A DNA stretch of 40,488 nt, from NCBI RefSeq assembly GCF_016428905.1, contig NZ_JAELTQ010000029.1, forward strand, positions 1 to 40,488, given 5' to 3'. Of this stretch, positions 3,572 through 40,488 are shown one piece after another. Numbering within the stretch: position 1 is the first letter of the stretch; every line of letters starts with the position of its first letter. Below the pieces are notes generated by a model. It made no database searches, was not told the origin of the DNA, and was given only the letters and a program-made list of their open reading frames with translations. A program made the position numbers and the translations under genes. This DNA is from Dyella sp. ASV24 (GTDB taxonomy: Bacteria; Pseudomonadota; Gammaproteobacteria; Xanthomonadales; Rhodanobacteraceae).

Positions 3572-3625
3572 GGGGAATCCTTGGATTTCTTGTTCGCTAC
3601 GCAGTGGGGACCGGCGCAAGATTGG

Positions 3626-3662
3626 CCCCTCACCCCAACCCTCTCCCCGAAGGGGAGAGGGA
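3626..3662. repeat. Solo hairpin repeat, same family as the ends of the 1-kb element
   Basis: This 37-bp sequence in the aceF-lpd gap contains CCCTCTCCCC GAA GGGGAGAGGG. It matches the outermost hairpin of the large elements at 17071-18137 and 30531-31607, including the adjoining CCTCACCCCAA. Here it occurs without the rest of the element. It lies between two genes probably read as one transcript, so it may affect mRNA stability or the ratio of E2 to E3. Confidence 0.85.
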
Positions 3663-16038: not shown

Positions 16039-16189
16039 ACTGACGAGATACCCAGCGCGGCCCCAGGGTGAGCATTCGTTAATCCCCTGTCGGCGTCTCT
16101 CGTCGTATGCTGTCACATGATCGTCATGCCAGGCTGGCGCCGTGCCACGCGCCGCTTCAGTCCTATGGCCCCCGCACAGGAAAGACCGC

Positions 16190-17011
16190 GTGAGCTACAC
16201 CCAATCGTTGCCCTGGACTCTGGAAAGCCTGGATTTCAGTCAGATCGACATCCCGCGCGTGCGCCAGAACGAAGACCTCTTCCTCCTGCTCTGCAGCGCC
16301 TCGTTTGTCGAAAGTGGTTCGGACTTATATACGCACAACCTCGTCGACCATTTCGCTGGCGACGAAACCCTCCAGACGTGGCTCAGCCAGCATTGGGAAC
16401 ACGAGGAACTGCAGCACGGCCGCGCCCTCGCCGCCTACGTGAAGGCCGTGTGGCCTGAGTTTGACTGGGACAAAGGCTTTGCTTCGTTCTGGGCCGAGTA
16501 CGGTGCGGTTTGCACCGCCGAACAGCTGGAGCCCAGCCGCGGGTTGGAACTGGCGGCTCGCTGTGTAGTGGAAACCGGCACCGCAAGTCTGTATCGCGCG
16601 CTCAACGACATCACCGACGAGCCCGTACTCAAGCAGCTCACCGGCCACATCAAGAGCGATGAAGTCCGCCACTACAAAAACTTTTACCAGCACTTCCGCC
16701 TGTACCGCGAACGCGAAGGCTTCAGTCGCTACAAGGTGTTCCGCGCCATCCTGCGCCGCGTGAATGAGATCCGCAGCGAGGATAGCGATATCGCACTGCG
16801 TCACGTGTTCAATCAGTGCTATCCGCACTTGAAGGAGAACGAGGCGGAGTTCAAGCGCATCACTGGGCGGGCGCAGGATTTGTTGCGGCGGAATATTCCG
16901 GCGGAGATGACGGTGAAGATGTTGCTGAAGCCGTTGGAGTTGCCGCCGCGGTTGCAGAGTGCCATGGAGAAGCCGTTGGCGAAGTTGGCGGAGAAGTTGT
17001 TTCTCAACTGA
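16190..17011 (+). CDS. Ferritin-like di-iron protein (acyl-ACP desaturase-like ligand pattern)
   Basis: The 273-residue helical protein shows the full carboxylate di-iron ligand pattern: E41 (FVESGS), EELQH at 72-76, E128 (VVETGTASLY) and DEVRH at 157-161. The spacing and the paired E-E-x-x-H and D-E-x-x-H motifs resemble acyl-ACP desaturases and related oxygenases rather than iron-storage ferritins. The substrate is unknown; oxygen-dependent hydroxylation or desaturation is a reasonable inference. The GTG at 16190 is chosen because AGGAAAG precedes it and the homologous-looking sequence starts there. The last part of the gene is rich in G-ending codons compared with the first part. Confidence 0.85.
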   Translation: MSYTQSLPWTLESLDFSQIDIPRVRQNEDLFLLLCSASFVESGSDLYTHNLVDHFAGDETLQTWLSQHWEHEELQHGRALAAYVKAVWPEFDWDKGFASFWAEYGAVCTAEQLEPSRGLELAARCVVETGTASLYRALNDITDEPVLKQLTGHIKSDEVRHYKNFYQHFRLYREREGFSRYKVFRAILRRVNEIRSEDSDIALRHVFNQCYPHLKENEAEFKRITGRAQDLLRRNIPAEMTVKMLLKPLELPPRLQSAMEKPLAKLAEKLFLN

Positions 17012-17070
17012 TCGCACGCTTGAGCTTCTCTCTTCCCTTCGGGCTAGGGGCAATCTAGCCGTAGCTTTGC

Positions 17071-18137
17071 TCCCTCTCCCCTTCGGGGAGAGGGCTGGGG
17101 TGAGGGGTGGGTGCTCGCCTTATCGTTTCGATGAAACCGCCACCCCGGCGCAGGCCGGGGTCCAGTAGCGTCGGTGTTCGGTGTTCGGTGTTCGGTTTTC
17201 GCCTCATGCGCTCCCGCGATCTGGCCGCTTACGCAGCGGGCGTTTCGATCGTCTGCCGACGCTCGAGTCACTTTTCTTTTGCTGGCCCAAAAGAAAAGTA
17301 ACCCAAAGAAAATGGCCGTAAGGCCAACGCCCGCAGCATCACGATGGGATAAGCCCGAACGGGTGAGGAATCGTGTGACTTGGCCACCTTCGCCTCTACA
17401 CAGCGGGTACACCGGAGCGCTTCGCAACGCGCCATGGCGCAGAGGACTTAAAGCAGGCCTCGCTACGCTTCCCGATCGCTGAGGCTAGAGAAGGAGGACG
17501 CTACGCTTTCCTACCGACGAGGCTAGGTAAAGGGAGCGCTACGCTTTCCTACCACTGAGGCAAGGTAGAGCAGACGCTGCGCTTCCCGACCGGTGGGGAG
17601 AACTCGACACCTAACGGCATCATCGTTGTCTTCTGCCTTGGCTTTGTGTCCCTGCTCTAGAGCAGGAGCAACGCGACCTGCCGCGATGCGATGTGCAGCA
17701 ACGCTGCACGAGCCGTCCGCTTGGCGCTTTTGACCTTCGGGCCCCCTTGAGCGGCGGTGAGGGGTGGACGAAAAGGCCCCGTAGGGGTGCCGGGCAGGAC
17801 GCCCGGCACTTTTCGTCGGGGCAGGAGCCCCGTCGAAAAGCCCGGACGCCCCTCACGGACTGGCCGGCTTCACCGGCCAGCGCCGCGATGGGGGTGCCGT
17901 TTCTTTTGGTTACTTTTCTTTGGGCAAGCAAAGAAAAGTGACTCGGCCTCCGGCAGGAGGTCGAAACGCCCGCTGCGTAAGCGGCCAGGTCGCGACCACG
18001 CGACAATCAAGCGATACCGCTACTGGACCCCGGCCCTTGCCCCCTTTTGTGGGGTTCGCCGGGGTGACGGCTATAGTTGAAACGATAAGGCGAGCACCCG
18101 CCCCTCACCCCAACCCTCTCCCCGAAGGGGAGAGGGA
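17071..18137 (+). repeat. Large structured inverted-repeat element, copy A
   Basis: The 1067-bp element begins and ends with the hairpin TCCCTCTCCCC / GGGGAGAGGGA. The outer 59 bp of the two ends match in inverted orientation with two differences. Further in, each arm carries GTGCTCGCCTTATCGTTTC, then CCGGGGTCCAGTAGCG, then a block of about 95 bp with CTGGCCGCTTACGCAGCGGG and a long A/T-rich hairpin (17270-17299 left, 17912-17939 right). The core (about 17330-17890) has 38-bp tandem units and several hairpins. Reading frames inside lack ribosome-binding sites, and mirrored copies arise simply because the arms are inverted. No transposase or target-site duplication is seen. It lies 59 bp after one gene and 77 bp from the end of the opposing one. 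Confidence 0.9.
17461..17600 (+). repeat. 38-bp tandem units in element copy A
   Basis: Three consecutive units start at 17461, 17499 and 17537, each exactly 38 bp and each beginning CGCTACGCTT, followed by a degenerate partial fourth unit from 17575. Each contains a GAGGC core roughly in the middle. The units differ at several positions, so they are old rather than freshly expanded. Confidence 0.9.
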
Positions 18138-18214
18138 GAAAAGCCGACGCGACTCAGACCCGTCCAGCGCCAGCCCCTTACAGGGGCACCCAAACGCCCC
18201 AACACAACCACCCA

Positions 18215-18661
18215 TCACTTCGCCGGCCGCGCCGCCTCCTCCACCTCACGCGGCTTACCCTGCTGCGGCGAATCAAGCTTCTTCAGATCCACCGGGCGAA
18301 TCTGCTTGATGAAACACGGCGAATCCTGCGGCCCCGTCAGTACACGGTCGAACTTCACCGATACCTCGCTCGCGCTGGACGTCAGAGCGACATGATTGGT
18401 GAATTCCAGGTTGCGGCAGCGACCATCAAGGTCAATCAGCCACGCCTCGTTGGAACGCGTATAGATGGCCAACTGCTCATCACTGAGCGGCTCCCACGAC
18501 CACAGGCTGAAGTAGTGAAAACTGTTGACGGGATCGCCGGCCGCAGCAGCGTACGCCTGTTGGCGCGCTTCCATGCGGGCGGTGTAATCCTTGCCTACGC
18601 GTGTGCAACCGCCGAGGGCGGCGATCACGGCGACAGCGGCAAGAAGATGTTTGGCTGCCAT
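18215..18661 (-). CDS. Lipoprotein, DUF6491-like
   Basis: The 148-residue product has a lipoprotein signal peptide with lipobox LGGC (Cys19), so it should be lipid-anchored in the envelope. The mature part contains FHYFSLWSWEPLSDEQLAIYTRSNEAWLID in spirit, split by short loops, then CRNLEFTNHVAL and a C-terminal CFIKQIRPVD segment, which fits the DUF6491 family of Xanthomonadales. Its function is unknown. The ATG at 18661 is chosen because GGAG is about 9 bases upstream; the ATG at 18670 is too close to it. It is the last of three same-strand genes with a LytTR regulator at the head. Confidence 0.8.
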   Translation of the reverse strand: MAAKHLLAAVAVIAALGGCTRVGKDYTARMEARQQAYAAAAGDPVNSFHYFSLWSWEPLSDEQLAIYTRSNEAWLIDLDGRCRNLEFTNHVALTSSASEVSVKFDRVLTGPQDSPCFIKQIRPVDLKKLDSPQQGKPREVEEAARPAK

Positions 18662-18719
18662 GAATGTCATCTCCGTAAGTGCTGGGCGTACAAACGCATG
18701 AACTCCATGCGGGTGGACG

Positions 18720-19451
18720 TTATTTCTTCTTGGCGGACGATTTGGCGACAGCCTGCCACTTGGACGGGTCAAAGCCACCGGTTTCGAACACCAACGTTTG
18801 CTTCTTCTCACCGTCCTGAAGCGTCACGTCCATGGTGATCTTCTTGGCCTTCTCCAACTGGGCGATGAAGCCCTTGTCATCCTTGAACAGGAGCGCAGGT
18901 TCGCCGGTGGTCGGTGCGAACGCGGCGATCGTACCCGGCTTGCCATCAAAGGTGGCCTTGATCGAACACACGCCCTTGCACACGAAGCCGTGTGGGCCAC
19001 CATTGAACAGGAAGGCGTTCTGCCCCCACTCGGTGTGACGGCGCAGCACCAGGCGCACGCGCTCCTCACCCGAAGGCTGGCTGGTGTAGATGGTGGCGGT
19101 GGATTGCGTACCGCCTTCCATCGGCGACACCTGATACAGCCACAGGCCAGCCAAGCGGTTCTTTTCGCTGCTTTCCTTATAACGCTGCTCGATCGCCGGC
19201 AGGCTCTGCTGCACTTCCTTGGCGGCATCGCTGTTGGGATAGCGACTGAGGATTTCCTTACCCATCGTCACCGCCATCTCGTCGTTGCCGATGCGCTGGA
19301 GCTGGCGATAAGTGTTGAGCTTGTCCGCTGAATCGTCAGCCGGCGCCTGCGCTTGCTGCGGCGCCGGCGCCTGATCACCGGATTGGGAACAGCCCGCAAG
19401 CACGAGCAAGGCGCCGAGCGTGCTGGCGGCGAGATGGTGGCGCTGTTTCAT
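18720..19451 (-). CDS. Putative lipoprotein of unknown function
   Basis: The 243-residue product has a lipobox LAGC (Cys21) after a basic, hydrophobic signal peptide, then an Ala/Pro/Gln-rich tether. A short helical region follows (about 50-95, including ILSRYPNSDAAKEVQ, reminiscent of a single TPR-like repeat). The C-terminal domain is beta-rich with a CKGVC cysteine pair and ends in a lysine run. I do not recognise the C-terminal family. AGGAA precedes the ATG at 19451; the ATG at 19541 would destroy the signal peptide. It lies 86 bp after the LytTR gene and 58 bp before the next lipoprotein gene. Confidence 0.75.
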   Translation of the reverse strand: MKQRHHLAASTLGALLVLAGCSQSGDQAPAPQQAQAPADDSADKLNTYRQLQRIGNDEMAVTMGKEILSRYPNSDAAKEVQQSLPAIEQRYKESSEKNRLAGLWLYQVSPMEGGTQSTATIYTSQPSGEERVRLVLRRHTEWGQNAFLFNGGPHGFVCKGVCSIKATFDGKPGTIAAFAPTTGEPALLFKDDKGFIAQLEKAKKITMDVTLQDGEKKQTLVFETGGFDPSKWQAVAKSSAKKK

Positions 19452-27579: not shown

Positions 27580-30273
27580 TCAGACCGTTTCCGGGTTCGG
27601 CTTGTCCGGATCCAGCTTGTACGTCTTGATGGCGCGGGCAACATCCTTGGCGTTGACCTTGCCTTCCTTCGCCAGCGCCGCCAGGGCCGCCTGCGCGATC
27701 CAGTAACGATCGACTTCGAAGAAGCCACGCAGGTGCTCGCGCGTATCCGAGCGGCCAAAGCCGTCGGTACCCAGCACGGTGTAACGCATACCGTCCGGCA
27801 TGAAAGCGCGGATCTGGTCGGCGTACTCGCGCACGTAGTCAGTAGCCGCCACGGCCGGACCCTGATGGCCCTGCAGCAGGCTGGTGACGTACGGCAGTCG
27901 CTGCTCGGCTTCCGGATGCAGACGGTTCCAGCGCTCGGCATCGAAACCGTCGCGACGCAGCTCGACAAAGCTCGGGCAGGACCAGATGTCGGCGGTCACG
28001 CCGAAATCCTTCTCCAGCAGCTCAGCGGCAGCGATGACTTCGCGCAGGATGGTGCCCGAACCCAGCAACTGCACGCGCGGCTCGCCCTTCTTCGGCTTGC
28101 CGGCATCCTTCAACAGGTACATACCCTTGATGATGCCTTCCTCGACGCCCTGCGGCAGATCGGGGTGGCTGTAGTTCTCGTTCATCACGGTGATGTAGTA
28201 GTAGACGTCTTCCTGCTCCTGCACCATGCGACGGGTGCCGTCCTGCAGGATCACCGCGATCTCGTACGAGAAGGTCGGGTCGTACGACTTCACGTTCGGG
28301 ATGGAGCCGGCCATCAGATGCGAGTGGCCGTCTTCATGCTGCAGGCCTTCGCCGTTGAGCGTGGTACGACCAGCGGTGCCGCCGATGAGGAAGCCGCGCG
28401 CACGCATGTCGCCCGCCGCCCAGGCCAGGTCGCCGATGCGCTGGAAGCCGAACATCGAGTAATAGATGAAGAACGGCAGCATCGCCTGGTTGCTGATGCT
28501 GTAGCTGGTGGCTGCAGCCATCCAGGCAGCCATGCCGCCAGCCTCGGAGATGCCTTCCTGCAGCACCTGACCCTTCTGGTCTTCGCGGTAGTACAGCAGC
28601 TGGTCGGCGTCCTGCGGACGATACTTCTGACCGAACGGCGCGTAGATGCCGATCTGGCGGAACATGCCTTCCATACCGAACGTGCGGGCTTCGTCAGCCA
28701 CGATCGGCACGATGCGCTCACCGATCTGCTTGTCGCGCAGCAGCAGGTTCATGCCGCGCACCAGCGCCATGGTGGTGGAAATTTCGCGCTCGCCGGTGCC
28801 CTTGGTGATCTGCTCGAACGCCGCCAGTTCCGGCGTCTTGAGCTTGGCATCGGCGTGACGACGACGCTGCGGCAGGAAACCACCCAGCGCGCGGCGACGC
28901 TCCATCATGTACTCCACTTCCGGCGAGTTCTTGCCCGGGTGGAAGTACGGCACGTCGGCCAGCTTGTCGTCCGTCACCGGAATATTGAAGCGGTCGCGGA
29001 AGTGGCGCACGGCGTCAGCGTCCAGCTTCTTCTGCTGGTGCGTCGGGTTCTGCGATTCACCAGCTGCACCCATGCCGTAGCCCTTCACCGTCTTGGCGAG
29101 GATCACGGTCGGCATGCCCTTGGTCTTCGTGGCCTGATCGTAGGCCGCGTACACCTTGTGCGGATCGTGGCCACCGCGGTTGAGGCGCCAGATGTCGTCG
29201 TCCGACAGGTTGGCGACCATCTCGCGGGTTTCGGGATACTTGTTGAAGAAATGCTCGCGCGTGTATGCGCCACCGAAGGCCTTGCAGGCCTGGTACTCGC
29301 CGTCGACGGTTTCCATCATCAGCTTGCGCAGCACGCCCTTGGTGTCGCGGGCGAGGAGCGGATCCCAGTAGCTGCCCCAGACGACCTTGATGGCGTTCCA
29401 GCCTGCGCCACGGAACACGCCTTCCAGTTCCTGGATGATCTTGCCGTTACCGCGCACCGGACCGTCCAGGCGCTGCAGGTTGGCGTTGATCACGAACACC
29501 AGGTTGTCCAGACCTTCGCGGCCGGCCAACGAGATGGCACCGAGCGACTCGGGCTCATCGGTTTCGCCGTCACCCATGAAGCACCAGATCTTGCGGTCGG
29601 TCTTCGGCATCAGGCCGCGGTGTTCCAGGTACTTCCAGAACTGCGCCTGATAGATCGCCTGGATCGGGCCCAGACCCATCGACACCGTCGGCACCTGCCA
29701 GTAATCCGGCATCAACCACGGGTGCGGGTACGAGGACAGGCCGCGACCATGGCCAGCCACTTCCATGCGGAACAGGTCGAGCTGTTCCTCGGCAATGCGG
29801 CCTTCCAGGAAGGAGCGTGCGTAGATACCCGGGCTGGAGTGGCCCTGATGGAACACCAGATCACCCGGGTGATCGGCGCTCGGCGCACGCCAGAAATGGT
29901 TGAAACCCACGTCGTACAAGGTGGCCGACGATGCGAAGCTCGCGATGTGACCGCCCAGCTCGCCCGGCTTACGGTTGGCGCGCACAACCATCGCCATCGC
30001 GTTCCAGCGAATCAGGGTGCGGATGCGCCATTCCATGGCGGCGTCGCCCGGCATCTTGGCTTCGTTGCCCGGCGAAATGGTGTTGACGTATTCGGTGGTC
30101 GGGTTGAACGGCAGGTAGCCGCCGGCCCGGCGCGTCGAATCGACCATCTTCTCCAAGAGGTAATGCGCGCGCTCGGTGCCATCGTGGTTGATGACGGCAT
30201 TGAGCGATTCGACCCATTCCTGGGTTTCGGTCGGGTCGAGGTCTTGATGAAGGATGTCGTCGAGCTGATCCAT
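27580..30273 (-). CDS. aceE: Pyruvate dehydrogenase E1, homodimeric type
   Basis: The 897-residue thiamine diphosphate enzyme decarboxylates pyruvate and acetylates the lipoyl groups of AceF. The thiamine/Mg motif starts GDGETDEPES at about 234 and closes with the asparagines of VINANLQ near 262-265. The N-terminal segment (about 1-50) is the usual E2-binding region. HQGHSSPGIYA at about 143 and GLQHEDGHSHL are active-site regions. Length is close to E. coli AceE (887). It is on the same strand as aceF-lpd but about 22 kb away and therefore has its own promoter. The 257-bp upstream gap abuts repeat element copy B. Confidence 0.97.
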   Translation of the reverse strand: MDQLDDILHQDLDPTETQEWVESLNAVINHDGTERAHYLLEKMVDSTRRAGGYLPFNPTTEYVNTISPGNEAKMPGDAAMEWRIRTLIRWNAMAMVVRANRKPGELGGHIASFASSATLYDVGFNHFWRAPSADHPGDLVFHQGHSSPGIYARSFLEGRIAEEQLDLFRMEVAGHGRGLSSYPHPWLMPDYWQVPTVSMGLGPIQAIYQAQFWKYLEHRGLMPKTDRKIWCFMGDGETDEPESLGAISLAGREGLDNLVFVINANLQRLDGPVRGNGKIIQELEGVFRGAGWNAIKVVWGSYWDPLLARDTKGVLRKLMMETVDGEYQACKAFGGAYTREHFFNKYPETREMVANLSDDDIWRLNRGGHDPHKVYAAYDQATKTKGMPTVILAKTVKGYGMGAAGESQNPTHQQKKLDADAVRHFRDRFNIPVTDDKLADVPYFHPGKNSPEVEYMMERRRALGGFLPQRRRHADAKLKTPELAAFEQITKGTGEREISTTMALVRGMNLLLRDKQIGERIVPIVADEARTFGMEGMFRQIGIYAPFGQKYRPQDADQLLYYREDQKGQVLQEGISEAGGMAAWMAAATSYSISNQAMLPFFIYYSMFGFQRIGDLAWAAGDMRARGFLIGGTAGRTTLNGEGLQHEDGHSHLMAGSIPNVKSYDPTFSYEIAVILQDGTRRMVQEQEDVYYYITVMNENYSHPDLPQGVEEGIIKGMYLLKDAGKPKKGEPRVQLLGSGTILREVIAAAELLEKDFGVTADIWSCPSFVELRRDGFDAERWNRLHPEAEQRLPYVTSLLQGHQGPAVAATDYVREYADQIRAFMPDGMRYTVLGTDGFGRSDTREHLRGFFEVDRYWIAQAALAALAKEGKVNAKDVARAIKTYKLDPDKPNPETV

Positions 30274-30530
30274 GGGGAGCTTCTCTCCGCGGCGCCGGGG
30301 GCTTGGCGCGGCTATAGGTGGATCGCCTCCGGGTGAGAGGCGGGAAACCCTCCGAGTGTAGCTCCGGCGGGGTTTTTCGCCAATTGGATCGAGACAATAC
30401 GGGGGCGAATGGAGATGGAGCGAAGGGGTTCGACTTTGGTCGGGGTGGCTATCGCTTGAGGCTTCTTTCTTATGAAGCGTGGTGGAGGGGCTCGTTGTTT
30501 TGTTTGGTTGTGATTTCGCGACGACCCGGC

Positions 30531-31607
30531 TCCCTCTCCCCTCCGGGCGACCCGAAGGTAGTCCCCTTTTTGGGAGAGAGGGTTGGGGTGAGGGGCGGGT
30601 GCTCGCCTTATCGTTTCATCTTTGGCCGTCATCCCGGTGGTGGTCGGGAGCCCGTTTCGTCAGTGGTCGGCTGTCGCTTCGTGCGTTACCGCGACCTGGC
30701 CGCTTACGCAGCGGGCGTTTCGATCGTCTGCCGACGCTCGAGTCACTTTTCTTTTGCTCGCCCAAAAGAAAAGTAACCCAAAGAAAATGGCCGTAAGGCC
30801 AACGCCCGCAGCATGTCCTTGGGATAAGCCCGAACGGCTGAGGAATCGTGTGGCTTGGCCACCTTCGCCTCTACACAGCGGGTACGCCGAAGCGCTTCGC
30901 AACGCGCCGGTGCGGGGAGGACTTAAAGCAGGCCGTGCTACGCTTCCCGATCGCTGAGGCTAGGGAGAGAGGACGCTACGCTTTCCTACCGCCGAGGCGA
31001 GGTAAAGGGAGCGCTACGCTTTCCCACCACTGGGGCAACGGAAAGCAGGCGCTACGCTTCCCAACCGCTGTGGAAAACTCGCCACCTAACGGCGTCGCTT
31101 TTCTCTTCTGCCTCGACTTTGTGCACCTAGAGCAGGAGCAACGCAACCCGCCGCGATGCGATGTGCAGCTTCGCTGCACGAGCCGTCTGCTGTCGCTTTT
31201 GATCTTCCGGGCCCCGTATGAGGCGGCGGGCGGATGGAGATCAGGCCCGCAGGGGAATCGGCAGGGATGCCGATTCCTTTTCGTCGGGGCAGGAGCCCCG
31301 TCGAAAAGCCCGGAACCCGACCGCGTACCTGGAGGGCGTAGCCCGGAAGGCGCCGATTCCGGGGGGCCCTTCTCTTTGGTTACTTTCTCTTGGGCAAGCA
31401 AGAGAAAGTGACCCGGCCTCCGGCAGGAGGTCGGAACGCCCGCTGCGTAAGCGGCCAGATCGCGATCACGCGATAACCAAGCGATACCGCTACTGGACCC
31501 CGGCCCTTGCCCCCTTTTGCGGGGTGCGCCGGGGTGACGGCTAAAGATGAAGCCATGAGGCGAGCACCCACCCCTCACCCCAACCCTCTCCCCGTAGGGG
31601 AGAGGGA
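30531..31607 (+). repeat. Large structured inverted-repeat element, copy B
   Basis: This 1077-bp copy has the same order of parts and the same orientation as copy A: outer hairpin, GTGCTCGCCTTATCGTTTC, arm block with CTGGCCGCTTACGCAGCGGG and the A/T-rich hairpin (30745-30774), 38-bp tandem units, core hairpins, then the mirrored arm ending at 31607. Its left terminal hairpin is altered: the loop between TCCCTCTCCCC and GGGAGAGAGGG has grown to about 20 bp. The right arm's A/T hairpin (31382-31409) and the core hairpin at 31254-31277 differ from copy A on both sides of the stem. It lies downstream of maeB and upstream of aceE. Confidence 0.9.
30936..31085 (+). repeat. 38-bp tandem units in element copy B
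   Basis: Three units start at 30936, 30974 and 31012, each exactly 38 bp, with a partial fourth from 31050. Phase and length equal those in copy A, although individual bases differ. Confidence 0.9.
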
Positions 31608-31671
31608 GAAATAAACAACGTCACCGCACCTTCGCAACACACCCCACACATCAGCAAAACAACCCACCAAA

Positions 31672-31701
31672 AACAAAAACGGGACCCTCAAGGCCCCGTT
31701 C
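31672..31701 (-). terminator. Terminator downstream of maeB
   Basis: On the minus strand AACGGGG and a partly wobble-paired GTCCCGTT form a stem followed by a TTTTTG run, 27 bp beyond the maeB stop codon. Confidence 0.8.
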
Positions 31702-31727
31702 TCGCAAAACATCAAACCAACCTAACC

Positions 31728-34019
31728 TCAACTACGACGATCACTCTGCGCCTGGCGAATCTGCGCATCCACCGCTGCAATCGCCGTCATATTCACCACG
31801 CGACGCGGCGTCGCCGCCGGCGTGAGGATATGCGCGGGCTTGTTGATGCCCATCAAGATCGGACCGATCGCCACACCGTCCGTCATCACACGCACCATGT
31901 TGTAGGTGATGTTGGCGGCGTCGAGGTTCGGCATCACGAACAGGTTGGCGCGGCCGGACAGCGTGGTGTTGGGGAACATGCGCAAGCGCAATGCCTCATC
32001 CCATGCGGTGTCGGCCTGCATTTCGCCGTCCATGTCGAGCTTGGGGCCACGCTGCACGAGAATCTCGCGGACCTTGCGCATCTTCGCCGCGCTGGCGTTC
32101 TCGTGGCTGCCGTAGTTGGAATGCGACAACAGCGCAATCTTCGGCTCGATGCCGAACAGCTTCAGGCGATAACTCGCCTGCAGCGTCGCCTCGGCGATCT
32201 GCTCGGCGGTGGGATCGCACTGCACGTGCGTGTCGAGAAAGAACCACGCGCCCTGATCGTTGATCACGCCCGTCATGGCCGAGGTGCACGACACGCCCGG
32301 GTCCAGGCCGAACACGCTTCGCATGTAGCCGAGCTTCTTGTGGAAGCGACCGACCAGGCCGCAGATCATCGCGTCGGCTTCGCCACGCTCCACCATCAAC
32401 GAAGCAATCAGCGTAGGACGCGAGCGCATCAGGTTCTTTGCCGCCGCCGGCGAGACGCCACGGCGTTCGGTCAGCGCGTGATACTGCTGCCAGTATTCGT
32501 TGAAACGCGGATCGTCATCGATGTTGGTGATTTCGAAATCGACGCCCTTGCGCATACGCAGGCCAAGGCGCTCGATACGTGTATCGATCACGCTGGGGCG
32601 ACCAATCAGGATCGGGAAGGCGAGGCGCTCGTCGATTACCGTCTGTACCGCGCGCAGCACGGTCTCTTCCTCGCCCTCGGCGTACACCACGCGCTTGATG
32701 TCAGCACGCGCACGCTCGTACACCGGCTTCATCAGCAGACCGGTGCGATAGATGAACTGGCCGAGCTTTTCCTTGTACGCGTCCATATCCACGATGGGGC
32801 GCGTGGCCACGCCGGAATCCATCGCGGCCTGCGCCACTGCCGGCGCCAGCATCACTAGCAGGCGCGGATCGAACGGGCGCGGGATGAGGTACTCAGGGCC
32901 GAAGGTCGGGATGTCCCCGCCGTAGGCGCTGGCGAGGTCACCGGCTTCCATGCGGGCCAGTTCGGCGATGGCACGCACGCAGGCGATCTTCATCGCCTCG
33001 TTGATGCCCGTGGCGCCTACGTCAAGCGCGCCGCGGAAGATGTACGGGAAGCACAGCGCGTTGTTGACCTGGTTCGGGTAGTCCGAGCGGCCCGTGCCGA
33101 TGATGCAATCGGGACGTACCTTCTTGGCATCTTCCGGCGAAATCTCGGGATTGGGGTTGGCCAACGCAAAAATGACCGGTTTATCGGCCATGGTGGCGAC
33201 CATTTCCGGCTTCAGGATGCCGCCGGCGGACAGGCCCAGGAACACATCCGCGCCCACGACGATCTCGGCCAGCGTGCGCTTGTCGGTGTTACGCGCATAG
33301 CGCTGCTTGTCCGGATCCATCTGGTCACGGCCGGTGTACAGCACGCCTTCGCGATCGAACGCTAGGATGTTCTCCGGCTTCAAGCCCAGCGCCACCAGCA
33401 TATCCAGGCACGCAATGCCCGCGGCGCCCACGCCGGTGGTGGCGAGCTTGACGTCCTCGATCTTCTTGCCGACCACTTCCAGCGCATTGACCACAGCGGC
33501 GCCGACGATGATGGCCGTGCCATGCTGATCGTCGTGGAACACGGGGATCTTCATCCGCTCGCGCAGCTTGCGCTCAACGATGAAGCACTCCGGCGCCTTG
33601 ATGTCTTCGAGATTGATACCGCCGAACGTCGGCTCGAGCGAGGCGATGATGTCGACCAGCTTGTCCGGGTCGCGCTCGTTGATCTCGATGTCGAACACAT
33701 CGATACCAGCGAACTTCTGGAACAGCACGCCCTTGCCTTCCATCACCGGCTTGCCGGCGAGCGGACCAATGTCGCCCAGGCCCAGCACGGCGGTGCCGTT
33801 GGTAATGACGGCGACAAGGTTGCCGCGCGCAGTCATTTCACTGGCGGCGTTTGGGTCTTCGACAATGGCCTCGCAGGCATAGGCCACGCCGGGCGAGTAC
33901 GCCAGCGCCAGGTCGCGCTGCGTGACCATCGGCTTGGTCGCGGAGACCTTGATCTTTCCGGGACGTGGGAGGCGGTGATACTCGAGAGCGGCGAGGCGCA
34001 GTTCTTCGGGAAGGGCCAT
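31728..34019 (-). CDS. maeB: NADP-type malic enzyme with phosphotransacetylase-like domain
   Basis: The 763-residue enzyme converts malate to pyruvate and CO2 with reduction of NADP+. The malic domain (about 1-420) begins [15 protein letters not shown] and contains [16 protein letters not shown] and the NAD(P)-fold [13 protein letters not shown]. The C-terminal phosphotransacetylase-like domain (about 430-763) is of the regulatory type seen in E. coli MaeB, where acetyl-CoA controls activity. Length equals the family norm (about 760). The Shine-Dalgarno sequence is weak. Its product, pyruvate, is the substrate of the nearby aceE product. The NADP preference is taken from the family and not shown by the sequence. 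Confidence 0.95.
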
Positions 34020-40091: not shown

Positions 40092-40488
40092 CGGTTTGTA
40101 GGGTGGTTTTTGGTTTCGCAACCTGTGCGTGTACCGCAATGGCGGTAAGGGCCAGGAGCAATTTGCAACGGTGAAGTTAGTCGTCTCGCGTTGTTGGTGG
40201 TTGGTGGTTGGTGGTTGCATCGTGCGCTACCGCGATCGGGCCGCTTACGCAGCGGGCGTTTCGATCGTCTGCCGACGCTCGAGTCACTTTTCTTTTGCTC
40301 GCCCAAAAGAAAAGTAACCCAAAGAAAATGGCCGCAAGGCCAACGCCCGCAGCATTTCGATGGGATAAGCCCGATCGGCTGAGGAATCGTGTTGCTTGGT
40401 CACCTTCGCCTCTACACAGCGGGTACGCCGTAGCGCTTCGCAACGCGCCGGTGCGGAGAGGACTTAAAGCAGCTTTCGCTACGCTTCC
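40092..40488. other. Intergenic sequence up to the window end
   Basis: No gene is supported here. The first 130 bp are unique sequence ending in a short tandem heptamer (near 40194-40218), and the rest is repeat copy C, which runs out of the window. Confidence 0.75.
40222..40488 (+). repeat. Large structured element, copy C (cut by window end)
   Basis: The sequence matches copies A and B from the arm block (GGCCGCTTACGCAGCGGG) through the A/T-rich hairpin (40286-40315, stem ACTTTTCTTTT / AAAAGAAAAGT) and the AACGCCCGCAGCAT block into the first 38-bp unit, where the window ends. Unlike A and B it lacks the outer hairpin and the GTGCTCGCC arm piece on the left; the LpxH-like gene ends 130 bp before. 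Confidence 0.88.

Follow-up and report, generated by a model that had tools for sequence, protein, structure and literature searches.

We found that the window, the 40,488-nucleotide stretch of DNA analysed here, carries an inverted-repeat element of kilobase size that is dispersed in many copies between the genes of its host. The window is contig 217 of the draft genome of Dyella sp. ASV24 (5.63 Mb, 635 contigs), a soil bacterium. The element has a conserved fold and a multicopy inverted architecture, is biased to the 3′ ends of genes, sits at positions shared between species and contains structured units that are homogenised within each genome. At slightly less than even confidence, we prefer to read it as a BIME-like intergenic composite around one or two units of the TwoAYGGAY kind, which would act as a distributed predicted CsrA-binding RNA.

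A multicopy inverted-repeat element of this size had been proposed from the window alone, and it is confirmed by the alignment of copies 1 and 2, by the mirrored arms and by matches throughout the genome. Copies 1 and 2 are 83.6% identical over 1,060 bp; the part of copy 2 homologous to copy 1 spans 30570-31607, with a variant outer repeat at the left end from 30531. Copy 3 is 89.7% identical to copy 1 over 301 bp, after which the contig ends. As originally predicted, there are three copies in one orientation; all are on the + strand, and the third runs from 40189 to 40488. The common orientation holds within the window only: both orientations occur throughout the closed genomes G124 and G113 and on single contigs of the host (C299 and C199), and a replichore-linked orientation, hinted at by the window and neighbouring copies on contigs C217, C436, C585 and C299, was dropped for this reason.

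The element is laid out as a nested palindrome, A-B-CD-E-core-E'-DC'-B'-A' (Table 1). From the outside inward, the left arm consists of module A, module B, the small hairpins C and D, and hairpin E, and the right arm mirrors this order; between the arms lie the left core, imperfect tandem repeats of ~38 bp, a middle part and the right unit. The arms are long and imperfect, as predicted, with 17071-17311 and 17900-18137 being 76.8% alike in copy 1 and 30573-30792 and 31365-31593 being 75.0% alike in copy 2, but the core between them measures ~590 bp instead of the expected 550 bp or so. The tandem-repeat stretch (17456-17610 in copy 1) is shorter in many copies of G124, where matches skip positions 175-266 of the query. 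The left core had been a candidate for an inverted unit, since model R1 (see below) matches it on the - strand in all three copies (17264-17406, 30739-30881 and 40280-40422) at 39-43 bits, but by eye these matches rest on hairpin E and the spacer, and the candidate was rejected. In Dyella, the left half has no clear unit beyond hairpin E and lacks A(N)GGA hairpins; at four loci from other genera of the host's family (L039, L043, L046 and L049), both halves are clear units of 164-231 bits.

Copy 1 lies between a + strand gene (16142-17011) and a - strand open reading frame (18215-18811), which is the convergent arrangement originally described. Copy 2 sits between two minus-strand genes at 27580-30273 and 31728-34019, which were named as aceE and maeB in the original prediction. 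A codon-based gene caller placed no gene in 17012-18719 or 30274-31727, in line with the claim that the element is intergenic and has no protein of its own; the same caller also missed the open reading frame at 18215-18811, so its gene list is not complete.

Table 1 Features of the element and its parts in the window.
Feature	Position	Strand	Evidence
Complete element, copy 1	17071..18137	+	sequence, BLAST, pairwise alignment
Complete element, copy 2	30531..31607	+	sequence, pairwise alignment
Copy 3, left part only, ends at contig end	40189..40488	+	pairwise alignment
Outer module A, left, 38 bp, CTCCCTCTCCCC..GGGGTGAGGGG repeat	17071..17108	+	
Outer module A, right, inverted	18098..18137	-	
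Module B, left, CGTC-type REP-like palindrome	17133..17166	+	
Module B, right, inverted, with an additional insert of ~20 nt	18018..18072	-	
Modules C/D, left, small hairpins	17219..17272	+	
Modules C/D, right, inverted	17941..17994	-	
Hairpin E, left	17266..17310	+	
Left core, found in the genus; no recognisable unit beyond hairpin E and spacer	17311..17455	+	
Imperfect tandem repeats of ~38 bp (by eye)	17456..17610	+	
Structured unit of copy 1	17738..17945	+	model R1, 208.6 bits
Structured unit of copy 2	31207..31415	+	model R1, 173.7 bits
Hairpin P4 of copy 1, apical loop AGGAC at 17796-17800	17787..17809	+	
Hairpin P5 of copy 1, apical loop AGGA at 17823-17826	17810..17839	+	
Hairpin P4 of copy 2, apical loop AGGGAT at 31263-31268	31254..31277	+	
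Hairpin P5 of copy 2, apical loop AGGA at 31291-31294	31278..31307	+	
Hairpin E, right end of copy 1 unit	17899..17945	+	
Solo module A outside any element, in a short gap between two minus-strand genes	3625..3662	.	

Nucleotide and covariance searches of the host genome and its relatives, as the original prediction had proposed, returned many copies in many genomes. With BLAST, all 40 scored candidates (of 178) in the host genome contain an element match of at least 558 bp, and there are at least 109 matching pieces. Model R1, a covariance model of the right unit with hairpin E built from 21 sequences, gave 84 matches in the host genome at E≤1e-6 (150 of 3,587 candidates scored), and at least 51 of them, among those listed, reach 144 bits or more; the remaining 33 may include left halves and fragments. 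These counts agree with the expectation of very many copies. With 150 candidates scored per genome, R1 found 77 matches in G124 and 51 in G113, which belong to the host's genus; three genomes from other families gave 15, 22 and 4. The contigs C495, C105, C599, C33, C629, C2 and C57 of the host start or stop inside the element, as does the window at 40488; because contigs begin or end inside copies, the element probably causes part of the fragmentation of the 635-contig draft.

The unit is present in many Proteobacteria. An inner DNA query matched 104 of 147 genomes of the host's family at E≤0.001 (the host genome included), R1 matched 63 of 274 genomes of its class, and a second model, R2, matched 79 of 398 genomes of a phylum sample at E≤1e-5. 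Alignments of 1.3-1.6 kb with Dyella loci, at 72-85%, were obtained for several host loci. An exact pattern of the Dyella type was found in 64 stretches, from Dyella tabacisoli, silvae, silvatica, solisilvae and halodurans, Dyella sp. C11, two Rhodanobacter and a contig labelled Candidatus Eremiobacteraeota (L134), which may be a binning error. Among named records, R2 matched Aeromonas caviae (114.9 bits) and Pseudoalteromonas (91.4 bits), and more weakly Ilyobacter polytropus (43.6 bits) and Burkholderia cenocepacia (37.6 bits, essentially hairpin E). A database match that would overturn the prediction was sought: no Rfam family reached its gathering threshold, no phage record matched the element, and plasmid records matched over 36-59 bp only. 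In the titles, opening parts of abstracts and paper sections covered by the literature search, none of the papers listed gives an account of elements of this kind as a whole.

There is good support for the structural identity of the element. RNAalifold, applied to a MAFFT alignment of 21 units of ~210 nt, gave 70 base pairs, 33 of which changed on both sides. In the family alignment with controls, 97.5% of the cells are paired and the covariation is 0.352; shuffled partners give 0.125 and slid partners no more than 0.084. Across the class, 57 distinct units, aligned by fitting to the covariance model, are 91.7% paired, with 69 of the 70 pairs changed on both sides and a covariation of 0.551 versus 0.133 after shuffling. 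Alignment A1 was made without recourse to a structure model; once columns with a wobble as the commonest pair are left out, it contains 27 G-U against 9 A-C pairs (p=0.004, with related rows); the counts from alignments A2 (106:41) and A3 (87:33) were set aside, as both alignments lean to the strand of the model. The unit of copy 1 has a predicted folding energy of -135.2 kcal/mol on the + strand (z -8.07) and -117.2 kcal/mol on the - strand (z -7.62). Because G-U pairs exceed A-C pairs in A1 and the + strand folds at lower energy, the + strand is the better structural strand of the unit. The element probably acts as RNA. At class-wide loci, units lying within 1.3 kb of each other form 36 neighbouring pairs, of which 31 have a head-to-head arrangement with hairpin E outside, two face each other and three are in tandem; some loci of this sample were fetched because they looked paired.

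Structural and sequence comparisons place the element near several known systems. By the usual marks of REPs and BIMEs (palindromes of 20-40 bp, many copies, alternating orientation), modules A and B fit, and the unit of ~210 nt and the total of ~1.07 kb do not. The original claim that the element exceeds ordinary REP or BIME repeats needs qualification, as the outer modules are REP-like and the element does not fall outside REP/BIME biology. Module B resembles the CGTC-tagged REPs in the published sections on them (PMC3733652), with a CGTC tag, a GC stem, inverted pairs and, in its better copies, a CCA tail; unlike them, it is just one shell of a kilobase element. The same sections identify dRS3 of Neisseria as a CGTC-1 REP and describe REP dimers within a larger palindrome in H. 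neapolitanus, of 41 bp only (PMC3733652). With REPIN/RAYT and TIRYT, the element shares inverted pairs of structured repeats between genes, and module A holds GGGGTGAG, which fits the TIR motif GGGGWSAS. It resembles CsrA-titrating sRNAs of the CsrB/RsmZ type in its several GGA-loop hairpins. Those sRNAs are dedicated transcribed genes, whereas the element, known from sequence alone, exists as dozens of intergenic copies per genome.

None of 4,227 Rfam families reached gathering on the window, and HEARO/IS605-associated RNA had no Rfam match there. TwoAYGGAY (RF01731) is absent even from the window's weak list (E≤5) and from 12 loci of the host's family at E≤0.5. In loci of other families, RF01731 scores above gathering in 12 of 50 related loci scanned, a few of which cover the same place (L192 and L220, L257 and L317): L190, L193, L194 and L212 among 18 scanned, L222, L259, L260, L263 and L264 among 14 (one being the named Pseudoalteromonas record), and L298, L312 and L313 among another 18. 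The unit and TwoAYGGAY share a pair of adjacent hairpins that have A-N-GGA loops and are enclosed by an outer stem. The loops in the window (AGGAC/AGGA and AGGGAT/AGGA) are of the form A(N)GGA, not strict AYGGAY; one locus of the host's family (L043) has ATGGAT in both loops of a unit. Hairpin E, the head-to-head pairing, the REP shells, the copy number and an apical type without GGA set the element apart from TwoAYGGAY as given in the published passages on that motif. We treat the element as a putative distant relative of TwoAYGGAY and not as a member. The original statement that a named family was not known for these copies needs qualification for the inner unit, whose distant relation appears through other families. 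The published entry of 2010 lists TwoAYGGAY as probably an RNA and probably not cis-regulatory, in gut sequences, Gammaproteobacteria and Clostridiales (PMC2864571), and a passage of 2014 proposes CsrA binding for it (PMC4333381).

The published CsrA site consists of a short hairpin whose loop contains GGA (PMC7366521). The unit has GGA in the apical loops of stable hairpins, as expected of a CsrA-binding RNA: among class-wide matches, GGA loops are found in 54 of 65 P4 hairpins and 53 of 65 P5 hairpins, compared with 5, 27 and 19 of 65 for P3, P6 and E. At the loci of the host, G124 and G113, all 81 units have at least one A(N)GGA hairpin and 74 have at least two. In the mechanism that we propose, the units would sit head to head inside nested REP-like palindromes, and read-through transcripts from flanking genes would contain the unit. 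Hairpins P4 and P5 would expose their A(N)GGA loops for binding by a dimer of the host's CsrA/RsmA, and the many copies might jointly form a distributed CsrA-binding RNA that titrates the protein or controls 3′ ends. Recombination would keep the copies alike and may also flip the core between the inverted arms. This proposal joins REP-type repeats, an orphan Rfam motif and the Csr/Rsm regulon, which are usually handled apart. Should CsrA bind the units, every genome with dozens of copies would contain a large sink for this protein that has gone unrecognised, and the long-standing question of the role of REP-like repeats could be put to the test.

To compare loops with csrA presence, csrA was sought by Pfam PF02599, which gave two matches in the host genome. 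The loop test (an A(N)GGA hairpin with a stem of at least 4 bp) was designed after the sequences of family f108 had been seen, and it was applied to 124 units from 69 genomes, the units being the best matches listed. In the 54 csrA-positive genomes, 63 of 81 units have such a hairpin, compared with 1 of 81 on the antisense strand; in the 10 complete csrA-lacking genomes, the counts are 2 of 30 and, antisense, 3 of 30. The Fisher value of this difference is 5e-12, for rows that are not independent; an earlier, stricter loop test gave 43 of 81 versus 1 of 30. In five drafts without a found csrA (73-95% complete), 12 of 13 units have the hairpins, and G269, the draft of 95% completeness, could be a genuine exception. 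The loop test detected no A(N)GGA hairpin in 11 of the 54 csrA-positive genomes, two of which (G227 and G352) have, by eye, GGA loops on 3-bp stems.

The complete csrA-lacking set consists of seven genomes of f108 together with f186, f192 and f193, absence in the last two meaning that they are not among the 220 positives. In f108, all ten element-bearing genomes, each 100% complete, are without csrA; the units from seven of them keep the stems, the pairing and hairpin E and differ in the apical part, which in several reads TGTYTGARCG..AG(C/T)GAGTT. We take f108 to be betaproteobacterial because BLAST of its unit finds Variovorax and Comamonas, and f186, f192 and f193 may also be betaproteobacterial or kin of f108. 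In a published survey, only two betaproteobacterial species are positive for csrA (PMC7366521). The csrA-lacking units probably come mostly from one clade, and the contrast may reflect a single event, with seven of the ten genomes in one family, so that it is suggestive only. A second apical type, TGTTTGAGCG..AGCGAGTT (the GAGCG type), is without GGA hairpins and occurs in csrA-positive genomes too; therefore CsrA binding is not a universal function, and the GGA type, rather than the element itself, seems to be tied to CsrA. The presence of the element was also tried as a correlate of csrA and rejected, as csrA is found in 55 of 63 genomes with a match and in 180 of 211 without. Taken with this one suggestive natural contrast, CsrA binding by the units is a specific hypothesis. 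A broader version, which we consider unlikely, is that concertedly evolving palindromes across the class are CsrA-binding RNAs with a swapped apical module (GGA with CsrA, GAGCG without), whose inverted pairing would yield one sense unit from read-through on either side.

Units without GGA hairpins were seen at L268, L270, L273, L276, L288, L295, L302, L305, L306 and L307. Most of these ten loci carry TGTTTGAGCG..AGCGAGTT or a variant, and no Rfam family reached gathering at any of them.

The positions of copies were mapped against gene orientation, as had been suggested, and the elements are biased to gene 3′ ends, with convergent gaps favoured and divergent gaps rare. The sample comprised 154 loci from Dyella and close relatives, all with a unit, from which 132 elements were kept after low-scoring and duplicate units were dropped and both neighbours were required to be called. 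Genes were called with a fixed stretch around the unit masked, so the counts refer to the neighbours called on either side of it. The 132 elements lie in 55 convergent, 70 co-directional and 7 divergent gaps, compared with 35, 119 and 27 among 181 background gaps of at least 60 bp (Fisher 2.6e-5 for convergent and 0.009 for divergent gaps). This comparison is conservative because the background loci hold elements themselves. Unit orientation in co-directional gaps is even (32 versus 38), which, like the lack of an A(N)GGA hairpin in the left half, speaks against the CsrA reading.

Such a distribution would also be expected of a BIME-like transcription-end element, that is, a two-way terminator, a protector of RNA ends or a nucleoid or gyrase site, in which the GGA loops are incidental or ancestral. 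The lack of an orientation preference is what a palindrome predicts, and REPs lie mainly downstream of genes according to the published sections on them (PMC3733652). We regard this explanation as possible, if on balance unlikely, as it does not account for GGA loops that are kept while the stems vary freely and that are nearly missing from the complete csrA-lacking genomes examined; by eye, moreover, no T run follows the outer hairpins.

Element positions are inherited, and the units are homogenised within each genome. The orthologous gap of copy 2 was inspected in 20 genomes of the genus, of which G124, G426, G078 and G425 could not be judged. A full element is present in seven (the host, G064, G427, G113, G090, G035 and G049), inverted in G427, G113 and G035; an element end lies at a contig break in G421 and G420; remnants were seen by eye in G134, G102, G424 and G423 (in G423 also by BLAST); and the gap is clean and short in G144, G422 and G013. 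When 30 host loci were compared with 30 each from G124 and G113, 14 pairs had both flanks in common, including two in which the core is flipped, and others had a single flank in common. Units are 87.4% alike within the host genome and 92.8% within G124, values that could be inflated because the loci were picked by similarity to copy 1. Between the host and G124, units are 83.0% alike at 12 shared loci (those passing a length filter, of 14 tried) and 83.5% in random cross-genome pairs; for G113, the values are 83.2% at five of eight shared loci, 83.3% over all pairs with the host and 87.4% within one genome. That shared-locus units are no more alike than random cross-genome pairs is the reason for concluding that positions are inherited and units homogenised. 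The segment to the left of the unit shows no homogenisation in G124 (78.0% within this genome versus 79.0% between the host and G124); within the host genome, this segment is 89.8% alike. Whatever the function, it is unusual for dispersed intergenic units to be homogenised while their loci are inherited.

Shared loci between species, together with homogenisation within genomes, argue against active transposition. We therefore consider it quite improbable that the element is a MITE-like DNA transposon, with the inverted units as long terminal repeats, a transposase acting in trans and the hairpins as DNA recognition sites, even though head-to-head pairs occur in many families and the element is present or absent between species at one orthologous gap. 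Many positions are common to several species, and the most alike pairs within one genome reach 92-95% among the sampled loci (two pairs at 100% were one place fetched twice). Direct repeats flanking the 26 elements for which both ends were found are no more frequent than in shuffled pairs, in agreement with the lack of a target duplication noted originally. Mobilisation by a RAYT or TIRYT transposase, prompted by the GGGGWSAS motif, was rejected: Y1 transposase (PF01797) is found once each in the host and G113, neither gene has the element's arms, and G124 has none despite its 77 R1 matches. An autonomous copy with a gene between the units was also sought, and the spacers of five long-spaced pairs hold other genes or short open reading frames, by eye without a transposase-like one.

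A passive relic of recombination, in which REPs and old structured RNAs were piled up by slippage or ectopic recombination and have no present function, would explain the mosaic copies, the variable tandem stretch and the decayed remnants in the orthologous gap. This is very improbable in our view, as class-wide compensatory change and loop conservation suggest selection on structure.

Several minor observations were made at individual loci. The Y1 transposase gene of the host (L121, C111:22018-22341) has 19-bp inverted repeats near its ends, which are unrelated to the element. The orthologous gap of G423 (L250) contains another REP-like palindrome, GTAGGAGCGCACCCTGTGCGCGACC, inverted around module B. 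On a megaplasmid of the fusobacterium Ilyobacter polytropus (L266:2376-2552), there is a weak unit-like match with hairpin E, and BLAST finds six places in this record; transfer between phyla is possible. In Burkholderia cenocepacia (L267:2532-2644), most of the unit is absent around hairpin E, and the Rfam sRNA Bp1_684 begins inside the 3′ arm of this hairpin.
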